NCBI GenBank assembly: GCA_029260295.1
Contig: JAJDDN010000002.1
Span: 310,001 to 374,000, forward strand
DNA: 64,000 nt
Origin: Phycisphaerales bacterium
GTDB lineage: Bacteria > Planctomycetota > Phycisphaerae > Phycisphaerales > UBA1924
Direction: 5' to 3'
Shown here: piece after piece, positions 54,098 through 58,371 of the stretch
How positions within the stretch are numbered: position 1 is the stretch's first letter
How the letters are laid out: every line of letters starts with the position of its first letter
The notes under the pieces: model-generated
What the model was told of the DNA's origin: nothing
The model's database searches: none
What the model saw: only the letters and a program-made list of their open reading frames with translations
Program-made: the position numbers and the translations under genes

Positions 54098-55537
54098 TTA
54101 TCGGAGCCCGTATTCGTTGAGTTTGCGGTACAAAGTCCGTTCCCCAATCCCCAGCATTTTGGCCGCCTGCTCACGGTTCCCGCCCGTCAGCTTGAGCGTT
54201 TCCCGGATCGCCTGCCGCTCAAGTTGCTCTAGGCTCGTCCCCGCCAAAGATCCGATTGAATAGGACCCATTCCCCCCAGCCAAATCGGATTCCCGGACCT
54301 CATCAGGCACAAACTCAACCCCGATTATTGACCCGCTCTGACCCCCACTCATCACCACCATCGTCTGCACAGTATTGAGAAGCTGCCGAACATTACCGGG
54401 CCAGTCGTACGCCGTCAATCGAAGCATCGCCGCATCCGACATCTCGGGAAGCGCCTTGCCCGGATTCAGTTCACCAGCAAACCGGCTCACCGCATGCCGA
54501 ACAATCCTCGGAATATCCTCCCGCCGGTCCCGCAGCGCCGGCAGATTCACAACCGTCCCCTTAATCCGAAAATACAAATCCTGACGGAAGGTCCCGTCCT
54601 TGATCATCTGTTCGAGATCCTTATTGGTCGCGCTGACCAATCGGACATCAACCTTCCGCAACTCGTTGGACCCGAGCCGAACAACCTCCCCAGACTCAAG
54701 CACCCGAAGCAACTTCGCCTGCATCGCCAAAGGCATGTCCCCGATCTCATCGAGAAACAGCGTCCCCCCATTGGCGTACTCAAACACCCCCTCCCGATCC
54801 TTCTCCGCACCGGTAAACGCCCCCCGCACATGCCCAAACAACTCGTCCTCAAGCAGATTCTCCGCCTGACCAGCACAGTTCATCGACTTAAACTTCTTCC
54901 CATCCCGGGCCGAGTTCCGATGCACGGCCTGAGCAATCAGCTCCTTCCCCGTCCCGCTCTCACCCGACACCAACACCGAAATATTCGACCGCGCCACCGT
55001 CCGCACGGTCTCAATAATCTTCCGCATCGACTCAGCACCAGCAATGATCCCCGCAAACCCCTCGTGCTGAACCAGATCCTTGAGTTCCTCAGACTCACTC
55101 CGAAGCACCGCCTGCTCCGCAGCACGCTTGACCACCGACCGCAGCACCACCAGATCCAAAGGCTTCTCAACAAAGTCAAACGCCCCATGCTTAAACGCAT
55201 CGCGGGCCGTCGGTACATCGCCGTGGGCCGTGACCATAATCGTCTCGGCATCGGGCTGATGCTTGCTTGCGAGTTCCAAAACCTTCATCCCCGCATTGGA
55301 CCCGTCGCCATTCACCCCATGCACCCCCGCGCTCTCGGGCATCCGGAGATCCGTGATGATCACATCGAACTTCCCAGCCGTGATCTCTTCATAGGCCCGC
55401 TCAACCGTATTGACAGTCGTGCACACATGCCCCGGCCGGCGCAACGAATCAACAATCACATCGGCGTGCTCGATCTCGTCTTCAACGATCAGCACCTGGG
55501 CGATCACGGGCTCATGTTTGGTATCGGTATCTGCCAT
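54098..55537 (-). CDS. Sigma-54-dependent response regulator, NtrC family
   Basis: Transcription activator of 479 residues. The receiver domain has VLIVEDEIEHADVIV and phospho-acceptor in VIITDLRMPES. The AAA+ domain has Walker A GESGTGKE, the sigma-54 contact loop GAFTGAEKD and Walker B GGTLFLDEIGDMPL. A C-terminal Fis-type helix-turn-helix reads LTGGNREQAAKMLGIGERTLYRKLNEYGL. The partner kinase is not in the window. I found no -24/-12 promoter near the pilus genes, so the target genes are unknown. Confidence 0.95.
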   Translation of the reverse strand: MADTDTKHEPVIAQVLIVEDEIEHADVIVDSLRRPGHVCTTVNTVERAYEEITAGKFDVIITDLRMPESAGVHGVNGDGSNAGMKVLELASKHQPDAETIMVTAHGDVPTARDAFKHGAFDFVEKPLDLVVLRSVVKRAAEQAVLRSESEELKDLVQHEGFAGIIAGAESMRKIIETVRTVARSNISVLVSGESGTGKELIAQAVHRNSARDGKKFKSMNCAGQAENLLEDELFGHVRGAFTGAEKDREGVFEYANGGTLFLDEIGDMPLAMQAKLLRVLESGEVVRLGSNELRKVDVRLVSATNKDLEQMIKDGTFRQDLYFRIKGTVVNLPALRDRREDIPRIVRHAVSRFAGELNPGKALPEMSDAAMLRLTAYDWPGNVRQLLNTVQTMVVMSGGQSGSIIGVEFVPDEVRESDLAGGNGSYSIGSLAGTSLEQLERQAIRETLKLTGGNREQAAKMLGIGERTLYRKLNEYGLR

Positions 55538-55670: not shown

Positions 55671-56174
55671 CTACAAAGTCAGCACACCGAGCTGATGCCT
55701 CCGCAGGGCACACGCCGCGATCGCCAGAGCATCCGCCAGATCCGCCGGCTTAGGGAGTTCTGGAAGATCAAACATCGACTGCACCGACAACTGCATCTGC
55801 TCCTTGGTCGCCCGCCCAGACCCCGCCATCGCCTTCTTGACCTCCGCCGGCTTGAGTTCCACAACCTCGATCCCCGCCGACCGAGCCGCCAGCAAGATCA
55901 CGCCACGCGCGTGGGCCATCTTAATAACCGTCGCCGGGTGATCTTTATGAGCAAACATCCCCTCAATCGCCACCAGATCTGGGCTCACCCGCTCAATAAG
56001 CTCGCAGACATCGGTATGGAGTTCCACCAGCCGATCCCCCATCGGAGGCACCGGTGACCCGCTCTTAGTCAACCGAAACACCCCCGCCTCAACAATCGCT
56101 GGCCGAATCGAATCCCCCGAGATGCACCCATAGCCGGTAATCGACAAACCAGGATCAAAGCCAAGGACTCGCAT
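55671..56174 (-). CDS. ruvC: Crossover junction endodeoxyribonuclease RuvC
   Basis: Holliday junction resolvase of 167 residues. It starts MRVLGFDPGLSITGYGCI with the first catalytic Asp. The second acid is in LVAIEGMFAHKDHPATVIKMAHARGVILLAA, and the last pair is in KPADLADALAIAACALRRH. ELKPAEVKKAMAGSGRATKEQMQ is conserved. ruvA and ruvB are not adjacent. The 21-bp spacer to the upstream protease gene is nearly the same as the spacer between the two protease genes. Confidence 0.95.
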   Translation of the reverse strand: MRVLGFDPGLSITGYGCISGDSIRPAIVEAGVFRLTKSGSPVPPMGDRLVELHTDVCELIERVSPDLVAIEGMFAHKDHPATVIKMAHARGVILLAARSAGIEVVELKPAEVKKAMAGSGRATKEQMQLSVQSMFDLPELPKPADLADALAIAACALRRHQLGVLTL

Positions 56175-56195
56175 AGATTCAGTATAGTGGATTAC

Positions 56196-56981
56196 TCAGG
56201 GCTCGGTGATCAGATCAAACGGAATGCGGTACGCGGGAAGAATAAAGATTTGATCCTCAAGTAGCGTTGTGCCTTTATCCGTCATGGCACTGACATTCCC
56301 AGTAGCGTTGGCGATTCCTGCAAGCACCAGCGTGCCATCGGTATAGACGCCGATGAGCGGACTCCCCGACAATCGAAGCCCCGAACGCTTTTTTTCTGAA
56401 AGAGAAATTATTATATATTTCCTGTTGTCATCAATTAACCAGATTTTCATGGGGATGGCAACGACTTCGTCGCTCCCTGATCGTCGCGACACCAGCGTCA
56501 AGTTCCGTAGGTCATCTACACGCTCAAACTCAAGTGGTTCGAGCTGAGCATAATCTAGAATGGGCTCTGCAATGTGTAAGAATAGATAGTCCCCTTGTAT
56601 ATCTTCATCAACAACCTGTTTATCCCCCGGCTCACGATGACGACGATTCCCGCTCCAACCATCACCAATGATGCTGTAATCAATTGCATGCCCATTCATC
56701 TTCAGTGGATGTCCTGGCTCAGGATCATACAAAAAAGCATGGGCCGCTGTTAATACGGTATGTTCCCCGATCGCTACCCCGGTCAATATCCCATGCGACA
56801 TATACAGATCCGGGTCGTCATAAAGCCGCAAGTTCTTGATCTCAACAACCCCCCGAGTAGCCCCCGCAGGCGGCGCGTACAAACACCCGCCGCTCAAAGT
56901 CACAAAGAGCATGAAACAGCAGACACGAAGTAAGCTGTAAATTGAAGTTGAGGATCCGGTATCAATACTAATGATTCGCAT
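56196..56981 (-). CDS. Trypsin-like serine protease lipoprotein, copy A
   Basis: Predicted exported protease of 261 residues. After a hydrophobic segment (LLRVCCFMLFVTLS) comes lipobox SGGC and then LYAPPAGATRGVVEIKN. The chymotrypsin-type triad is readable: His in VLTAAHAF, Asp in GDYLFLHI and Ser in RLSGSPLIG. It is a paralogue of copy B immediately upstream. Its first 15 residues, MRIISIDTGSSTSIY, have no match in copy B but resemble the RuvC start (MRVLGFDPGLSITGY), pointing to a duplication breakpoint inside ruvC. Substrate unknown. Confidence 0.75.
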   Translation of the reverse strand: MRIISIDTGSSTSIYSLLRVCCFMLFVTLSGGCLYAPPAGATRGVVEIKNLRLYDDPDLYMSHGILTGVAIGEHTVLTAAHAFLYDPEPGHPLKMNGHAIDYSIIGDGWSGNRRHREPGDKQVVDEDIQGDYLFLHIAEPILDYAQLEPLEFERVDDLRNLTLVSRRSGSDEVVAIPMKIWLIDDNRKYIIISLSEKKRSGLRLSGSPLIGVYTDGTLVLAGIANATGNVSAMTDKGTTLLEDQIFILPAYRIPFDLITEP

Positions 56982-57002
56982 GGGGCCAGTATAGTGGAAT
57001 GC

Positions 57003-57758
57003 TTAGGGCTCGGCGATCAGATCAAACGGAATCCGGTACGCGGGAAGAATAAAGAACTGATGATCAAGTCTCCGCTGCTTGCCATCGATCTCCATCAATA
57101 CATCCCCATGTGAAGTTTCGATCCCCACCAGCACCAGCGTGCCATCCTCATAGGTCCCAATAAGCGGACTCCCCGAGAAATAAAAACCATCACGGGCCCA
57201 CCGGGGCAAATCGAGGGTGATGTCCTTCCGATCGTTTCCATAGTTCACCCTCTTGGGCACAATCGCCTTCACTTCACCAGTGTCTTTTCGCCGTGTCACA
57301 AGGTAAAGATTACGAATTTCGCCAATCCGCTCATACTCCAACGGCACAAGCCGAGCAAAATCTGAAAACGGCTCGGTCGTTTTCAGGAGTACATAATCCT
57401 CCTGAATCACATCCCCGTATGCGGGCTTGTCCTCAAGAGCCCAATCGCCACGAATCCCCTCCCAACCATCAGCAATAATGGTGTACTCAAGGGTTCGCCC
57501 ATCAATCGTGATCGGATGATCCGATTCGGGCTCATCCTCAAAGGTATGGGCGACCGTCAAGACCGTATGCTCCCCAATAAAAATCCCGGTCAATGTATTG
57601 GTCAATGTAATACTCTGACCGGGATGATCCCCCTCCCACACCCATGTATCCTTGATCTCAACAACCCCCCGGGTCAAACCCGCAGGCGGCGCGTGCAAAC
57701 ACCCAGCAAGCGGAATCACACACAAAACCAACACCACATAACACATAACTCGTTTCAT
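57003..57758 (-). CDS. Trypsin-like serine protease lipoprotein, copy B
   Basis: Paralogue of copy A, 251 residues. It has a normal lipoprotein signal (MKRVMCYVVLVLCVIPLAGC) followed by LHAPPAGLTRGVVEIKD. The triad candidates are His in VLTVAHTF, Asp in EDYVLLKT and Ser in FSGSPLIGTY. It ends FFILPAYRIPFDLIAEP, nearly identical to copy A's end. The orthodox signal peptide suggests this is the ancestral form. It lies 7 bp downstream of riboflavin synthase on the same strand. The family resembles remote trypsin-like proteins; activity is inferred from motifs only. Confidence 0.75.
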   Translation of the reverse strand: MKRVMCYVVLVLCVIPLAGCLHAPPAGLTRGVVEIKDTWVWEGDHPGQSITLTNTLTGIFIGEHTVLTVAHTFEDEPESDHPITIDGRTLEYTIIADGWEGIRGDWALEDKPAYGDVIQEDYVLLKTTEPFSDFARLVPLEYERIGEIRNLYLVTRRKDTGEVKAIVPKRVNYGNDRKDITLDLPRWARDGFYFSGSPLIGTYEDGTLVLVGIETSHGDVLMEIDGKQRRLDHQFFILPAYRIPFDLIAEP

Positions 57759-57765
57759 TCAACGC

Positions 57766-58371
57766 TCAGTTCTGGATATTCATCCGCTCGACCGTATGCA
57801 CAATCGTCTTGACCATCGCATCCGCCTCGATGTTCACCGGATCCCCCACCACCCGATCCCCAAGCGTCGTCCGATCAAGCGTCTCAGGAATCAACGCCAC
57901 CTCGATCCAGCACCCATCAGCATCCAGAGCCGCGATGGTCAATGAGATCCCATCAATCGCCACCGATCCCTTCGGAATCATCCATCGCATCAGATCCCCC
58001 CCCAAAGTAATCCGAACCCGGTAGCCGTCCAAGTCCTCAATCCCGATCACCTTGCCAACCCCGTCAACATGCCCCTGGACCTGATGCCCATCGAGCCCGT
58101 CGCCCACCCGCAACGACCGCTCCAGATTTACCCGATCCCCGGCACCCCATCCCCCCAGCGTGGTCTTCCCTGATGTCTCCGGGATCGCGTCAAAGCTCCA
58201 CAATCCCCCCTCATCGCTCACCAGCGTCAAACAGCACCCGTTATTCGCTATCGAATCCCCCGCGGCAGGCGAATGGTCCCACCCAGCGGGATCAATCACA
58301 ATACGGATCCCATCCTCAGTCTTAGCCAAAGAATGAACCGTCCCGATCGCCTGCACAATACCTGTAAACAT
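57766..58371 (-). CDS. ribE: Riboflavin synthase, alpha subunit
   Basis: Converts two 6,7-dimethyl-8-ribityllumazine to riboflavin. Start at MFTGIVQAIG (58371), the invariant N-terminus of the family, gives 201 residues. The two lumazine-binding repeats are recognisable: SIANNGCCLTLVS with DAIPETSGKTTLGGWGAGDRVNLERSLRVGDGLDGHQVQGHVDG, then SVAIDGISLTIAALDADGCWIEVALIPETLDRTTLGDRVVGDPVNIEADAMVK. No FMN riboswitch is visible upstream. It is divergent from the propeller lipoprotein. Confidence 0.95.
   Translation of the reverse strand: MFTGIVQAIGTVHSLAKTEDGIRIVIDPAGWDHSPAAGDSIANNGCCLTLVSDEGGLWSFDAIPETSGKTTLGGWGAGDRVNLERSLRVGDGLDGHQVQGHVDGVGKVIGIEDLDGYRVRITLGGDLMRWMIPKGSVAIDGISLTIAALDADGCWIEVALIPETLDRTTLGDRVVGDPVNIEADAMVKTIVHTVERMNIQN

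Follow-up and report, generated by a model that had tools for sequence, protein, structure and literature searches.

A trypsin-like lipoprotein gene with a ruvC-like start between ribE and ruvC in a Phycisphaerales bacterium

Selection experiments are a familiar source of hybrid genes that arose when a duplication spanned the boundary between two genes. Natural, long-lived hybrids whose borrowed codons are still recognisable are, to our knowledge, seldom documented. In Staphylococcus aureus, tandem duplications with short junctions have produced the fusions rplK'-'sigH and nusG'-'sigH, in which sigH is joined to the initial 42–50 codons of the downstream rplK or nusG and uses the promoter and start codon of that downstream gene, with intact copies remaining (PMC3486894). 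In the Escherichia coli long-term evolution experiment, the rnk-citG tandem duplication that activates citT brings a copied gene under the promoter of a neighbour and creates a truncated fusion ORF (PMC5918244). Leaderless promoters have been described in Mycobacterium tuberculosis, where a TANNNT −10 motif is centred 7–12 bp before a start site that is also the start codon (PMC3898074).

The locus described here lies on the minus strand of a 64,000-nucleotide stretch of DNA from a Phycisphaerales bacterium (the window; genome G000, contig positions 310001–374000), in the order ribE, protease B, protease A, ruvC. Protease A is chimeric, with protease B and ruvC both intact on either side of it. 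The capture of its promoter, start codon and about nine codons from ruvC is well supported. Chimera formation by duplication is an already known mechanism, and nusG'-'sigH appears to be a close analogue: there, too, the breakpoint lies just inside the downstream gene, and the promoter, start and first codons of that gene are taken in frame (PMC3486894). The S. aureus case is laboratory-selected and reversible, and its 42–50 captured codons come with a ribosome-binding site (PMC3486894). Protease A, in contrast, is fixed and old, has about nine captured codons and an apparently leaderless promoter, and encodes a lipoprotein with those codons in its signal peptide. The rnk-citG duplication is a looser parallel, in that a copied gene comes under a neighbour's promoter, but citT is unfused, the promoter is that of a gene at the opposite end of the duplicated segment, and the event is very recent and unstable (PMC5918244). 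We found no paper on a ribE–protease–ruvC locus.

The locus and its trypsin-like lipoproteins

The features of the locus are listed in Table 1. The B-to-A and A-to-ruvC spacers are each exactly 21 bp long, and CAGTATAGTGGA is present in both. Gene order, coordinates and the equal spacers with their common sequence had been given in the initial annotation of this DNA and are borne out.

Table 1. Coordinates (window positions) of features between ribE and ruvC
Feature	Position	Strand	Basis or remark
ribE, riboflavin synthase alpha chain	57766..58371	-	Next gene upstream; MFTGIVQ used as start; from sequence and tblastn searches of congeners
Protease B, 251-aa trypsin-like lipoprotein	57003..57758	-	ORF; weak Trypsin match; ordinary short family N-terminus (MKRVMCYVVLVLCVIPLAG-C)
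Protease B 3' end, left copy of direct repeat	57003..57061	-	54/59 identical to protease A 3' end
B-to-A spacer, predicted copy of ruvC core promoter	56982..57002	-	-10-like TATACT at 56988-56993, 6 nt 5' of ATG
Protease A, 261-aa trypsin-like lipoprotein	56196..56981	-	Putative triad H81, D131, S207 invariant in family
Captured ruvC start in protease A, ATG and codons 2-9 (MRIISIDTG)	56955..56981	-	PWM scan, codon shuffles
Linker, codons 10-18 of protease A, place of join	56928..56954	-	Without significant match to ruvC or ribE-B junction
Lipobox LSGGC of protease A, Cys33	56883..56897	-	Sequence; GC invariant in all six proteins
Protease A putative triad codon H81	56739-56741	-
Protease A putative triad codon D131	56589-56591	-
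Protease A putative triad codon S207	56361-56363	-
Protease A 3' end, right copy of direct repeat	56196..56254	-	B-like, though the middle of A is not
A-to-ruvC spacer, predicted ruvC core promoter	56175..56195	-	TATACT at 56181-56186, 6 nt 5' of ATG; TANNNT-type box conserved at ruvC across genus
First 27 nt of ruvC, source type of captured start	56148-56174	-
ruvC, Holliday junction endonuclease	55671..56174	-	Pfam RuvC E = 4.5e-34

Judging from their sequences, A and B are probably divergent trypsin-like lipoproteins with predicted protease activity. Trypsin or Trypsin_2 matches are weak but consistent in most members of the family, with the best member reaching E = 1.7e-5 (Trypsin_2). Protease A scores 13.7 bits against a cut-off of 27.6 and protease B 14.1 bits against 20.6, and because both lie under the curated Pfam cut-offs we name the proteins only ‘trypsin-like’. 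An ordered H-D-S set, within the motifs TAAH, D..LL and SGSP, is invariant in the six members and follows the order of the trypsin-like serine peptidases (PF00089 / PF13365); unlike those, A and B score under the cut-offs and the family is restricted to one genus. A profile search of the PDB returned only matches with E > 0.05, among which several trypsin-fold proteases matched over the His region without reaching significance. The AlphaFold model of A, built from the six-sequence alignment, had a mean pLDDT of 45 and was too poor for judging whether A has the double beta-barrel fold of such peptidases.

The signal peptide of A is 32 residues long, compared with 19–20 in the other members. Bacterial lipoproteins (PROSITE rule) have a positive residue near the N-terminus, then a hydrophobic stretch and a lipobox Cys within about 35 residues. 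Protease A conforms marginally: the early positive charge is R2, a residue that comes from ruvC; hydrophobic residues run from position 17; and the LSGGC lipobox places Cys33 near the usual limit. Export of A is plausible on these features.

The ruvC-like start and its promoter

The initial annotation had likened the start of A to that of RuvC, at about 60 per cent over 45 bases. The count is correct (27/45 nt identical to the genome's own ruvC), and the likeness is concentrated in the first 27 nt (19/27), which match significantly at the DNA level; codons 10–15 (8/18 in the next 18 nt) show no clear homology to ruvC. The best single match to these 27 nt, at 23/27, is the ruvC of the congener G015. 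RuvC begins MRILGIDPG in G015 and MRVLGFDPG in G000, compared with MRIISIDTG in protease A, and the captured codons thus look more like the ruvC of another clade than like the genome's own.

We scanned both strands of the window with a position profile of ruvC starts made from 17 congeners, leaving G000 out. Over +1 to +27, the true ruvC ranked first (41.2) and protease A second (25.7), and the best other among 127,948 positions scored 10.7. When ATG and the following CGA were ignored (+7 to +27), A again ranked second, barely above the next site (15.2 versus 14.9), and over +28 to +45 it ranked only 2841 of 127,966. The start of A also beat all 2000 sequences in a codon-shuffle control (P = 0.0005), and among 804 other ATG starts taken from these loci as background none reached a score of 16, compared with 19 for protease A. 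The match keeps the ruvC reading frame and joins without a break to the copied promoter, at the same 6-nt spacing. These results uphold the proposal that A uses the start codon and first codons of ruvC, for about nine codons. In the proteases of G001, G017 and G015 and in protease B, a ruvC-derived start was unsupported (codon-shuffle P of 0.07–1).

There is no other in-frame ATG, GTG or TTG from the stop of B to M24 of protease A, which lies nine residues ahead of the lipobox Cys33. Since no other in-frame start fits, any production of A would almost certainly begin at the borrowed ATG. Comparison of linker codons 10–18 with ruvC and with the ribE–B junction gave no significant match; the join is eroded, and breakpoints or microhomology are no longer readable there.

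The initial annotation did not say what the repeated spacer is: the CAGTATAGTGGA in both copies is predicted to be the ruvC core promoter. A TANNNT-type box, usually TA(T/C/A)ACT, is found 6–7 nt 5' of the ruvC ATG in G000 and 17 congeners, and it is kept whether the adjoining upstream gene is ribE, a small membrane-protein gene or a protease. (The ruvC of G014 was left out, as a run of N, an assembly gap at L073 between ribE and ruvC, falls within its start region.) Because the box precedes ruvC in congeners with and without the protease, the spacer belongs to ruvC.

Protease A and ruvC share the geometry of TATACT, 6 nt and ATG, which leaves no room for a Shine-Dalgarno leader. Boxes of the TANNNT type lie 5–8 nt upstream of 9 of the 54 gene starts in the window, where 0.9 are expected (1.6 per cent of all ATG/GTG positions; P = 2e-7). 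Examples are found at 55537, 7341, 35315, 30093, 30948, 31738 and 62200, at about ten times background. Leaderless starts seem common in this planctomycete, and the position of the box together with this enrichment suggests that the protease A transcript is probably leaderless. The geometry is that of the leaderless promoters mapped in M. tuberculosis (PMC3898074); in this planctomycete it is read from motif position and enrichment.

Divergence of A from B, and the congeners

The initial annotation described the mature parts of A and B, like their last ~17 residues, as almost exactly shared. Only the second description stands. The two proteins are 47–49 per cent identical (49 per cent over 249 residues) and their DNA 59 per cent, and only two stretches are close, the ~54 nt at the N-terminal end of the mature part (85 per cent) and the last 42–59 nt (92–95 per cent; 40/42 and 54/59 nt identical). 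The 3' end of A is nearly as similar to those of G001 (38/42) and G017 (37/42), with 55–59 per cent identity in the middle of the gene. Between A and B, the contrast of 3' end and middle (56 per cent) is strong (Fisher P = 4e-8), and no such contrast is seen among the B-type genes (P = 0.45 and 0.11). The direct repeats that flank A are ~107 bp long, made up of 59 bp of protease 3' end, the 21-bp spacer and 27 bp of start, and are identical at 88/107 positions. Protease A thus appears to be a mosaic: after the ruvC start come a linker, a central protease part that is old, and a 3' end that is B-like and runs into the promoter repeat. Gene conversion could readily act on these repeats, and recombination between them could remove A precisely and so bring back the arrangement seen in G001.

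In a tree of the six protease sequences, without an outgroup, B groups with the genes of G001 and G017 (support 100/99) and A falls outside this clade. A clade of A and B was rejected by the AU test (P = 0.001 for protein, 0.008 for DNA), as was one of A, B and G001. At 6 of 14 diagnostic sites, where the B-type and the G015/G013 proteins are each uniform, A has the G015/G013 residue; it lacks a three-residue insertion of the B-type proteins and is closer in protein sequence to G015 and G013 than B is. Its closest sampled relatives are only 46–50 per cent identical in amino acids. By these sequence comparisons A is homologous to B but not its sister, and its origin as a recent copy of B is rejected.

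We searched 163 genomes of the bacterial family. The proteases occur in 5 of 21 species of the genus and in 0 of 142 other genomes, and every one sits only between ribE and ruvC; no orthologue of A with ruvC elsewhere was found. The 163 genomes and the GTDB contig set yielded the same four congeners only, with nothing outside the genus, and the named records with this family are Phycisphaerales/Planctomycetota MAGs. As the initial annotation had anticipated, relatives with a single protease gene beside ruvC exist: G001, a sister whose RuvC is 95 per cent identical to that of G000, and G017 each have one B-type gene directly behind ribE and 21 bp before ruvC. G013 and G015 have one more distant protease gene each. 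In the remaining congeners ribE directly precedes ruvC, or a small membrane-protein gene lies between them. These membrane proteins (about 105–125 aa) form one apparent family and fill the slot in G002 (L065), G005 (L067), G012 (L071) and G020 (L078). The ribE–ruvC interval appears to be a patchy accessory-gene slot in the genus. Elsewhere in a congener genome, a weak protease match (G010:C15:25884-26114, L037; E = 6e-5, 32 per cent over 80 aa) falls in a short frame with three TAG stops and is possibly a decayed protease copy, or chance.

In G013 (L072) the order is ribE-TAAGATCGTGTATACTCACCTATGCGAA-protease, and from the last part of ribE up to and including ATGCGAA, with the promoter between them, this junction aligns with the ribE–ruvC junction of its protease-free sister G016 (L075). 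Because of this match, we place the G013 protease behind the original ruvC promoter, with ruvC behind another copy. Beyond ATGCGAA the similarity of the G013 protease to ruvC is weak and only suggestive (P = 0.013). The two sisters thus differ as ribE–promoter–protease–promoter–ruvC and ribE–promoter–ruvC, by a gain or by a precise loss between repeats. The G015 protease has a TATACC box 5 nt upstream and no ruvC codons at its start, and a box of this kind is absent from the B-type genes. This pattern could have arisen from a single old capture common to the A-type genes or from recurrent captures.

Origin and significance of protease A

Our preferred reading of protease A is that of an old paralogue (or xenologue) of mosaic make-up, whose 5' end came from ruvC and whose 3' end was later homogenised with B. 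We consider it probable that an ancestral short-junction tandem duplication, running from the interior of the protease 5' end to just inside ruvC, gave rise to the chimera. The rest of A would come from the genus-specific trypsin-like lipoprotein gene. The upstream, B-type copy would have kept its old start behind ribE, and the downstream, A-type copy would have received the ruvC promoter and ATG. The event would be older than the split of G000, G001 and G017. Afterwards G001 and G017 would have retained B, G013 (perhaps also G015) an A-type gene behind the ruvC promoter, G000 both, and most congeners neither. Later recombination between the direct repeats would have made the 3' ends alike, and it could also excise A precisely. 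On a tree of six sequences without an outgroup, the duplication may either predate or postdate the separation from the G013/G015 clade, and the weak ruvC similarity in G013 and the lack of ruvC codons in G015 stop short of proving one shared event. Differential loss in several lineages would also be required.

The initial annotation had proposed a duplication of the protease–ruvC pair with a breakpoint inside ruvC. The ruvC 5' end in frame before the signal sequence of A agrees with this, but the rejection of an A+B clade speaks against the present B–ruvC pair as the parent. The version in which the pair was duplicated recently and simply in the G000 lineage, and A then diverged fast, would explain the gene order, the equal spacers, the ruvC-like start, the near-identical 3' ends and the single copy in the sister genome. 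We judge it very unlikely, given the AU tests, the diagnostic sites and the missing insertion; a copy of B that had diverged fast should also lie farther from G015 and G013 than B does, whereas A is nearer. Recent duplication with an accelerated copy A was rejected by the trees, AU tests and diagnostic sites. Because A is not the sister of B, has codons like those of another clade and a mosaic 3' end, and because the G013 protease stands behind the original promoter, the joining should be older or have come by recombination from another lineage. Under the latter alternative, the G000 lineage first had ribE–B–ruvC like G001, and a unit of ruvC promoter-start, A-type protease and ruvC promoter recombined in at shared promoter/ruvC sequence, making A and B xenologues. 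Such an import would fit the position of A outside the B clade, the presence of B only in G001, the direct repeats around the unit, and a B-like 3' end and flank, as a crossover there would leave them. The better fit of the captured codons to G015-clade ruvC points the same way, but two substitutions of a common kind, Val to Ile and Phe to Ile, largely explain it. No sampled genome holds a close relative of A, and the duplication-fusion must still have occurred somewhere. We think import unlikely, though it deserves serious consideration, and favour an old duplication with losses mainly because no unseen donor is needed. Coincidence or convergence would make the start an ordinary one resembling RuvC MRIxxIDxG and the spacer a conserved downstream flank of a duplicated protease. 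The coding match does span only 27 nt, and lipoproteins often begin with MR or MK, but the profile rank, the shuffles, the background starts and the in-frame continuity with the promoter make this explanation exceedingly improbable.

A broader and rather doubtful idea is that the duplicated ruvC promoter and start act as a docking repeat, by which promoter-start–protease–promoter units could enter and leave the ribE–ruvC slot cleanly through homologous recombination. Leaderless promoter capture would then have repeatedly created and moved accessory genes there (A in G000, the G013 protease and perhaps that of G015).

Protease A adds to the known cases a natural one that is fixed, old and mosaic and whose start is apparently leaderless. 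Its source gene lies alongside, and relatives with an empty slot or a single protease copy are available for comparison. What was borrowed seems to amount to an entire leaderless start, with promoter, ATG and a few codons. Such promoters may lend themselves unusually well to capture, since neither a leader nor a ribosome-binding site need travel with them. In protease A, the catalytic-motif codons of a DNA-repair enzyme would have been reused as the front of a predicted signal peptide, where they now form the start of a lengthened n-region.
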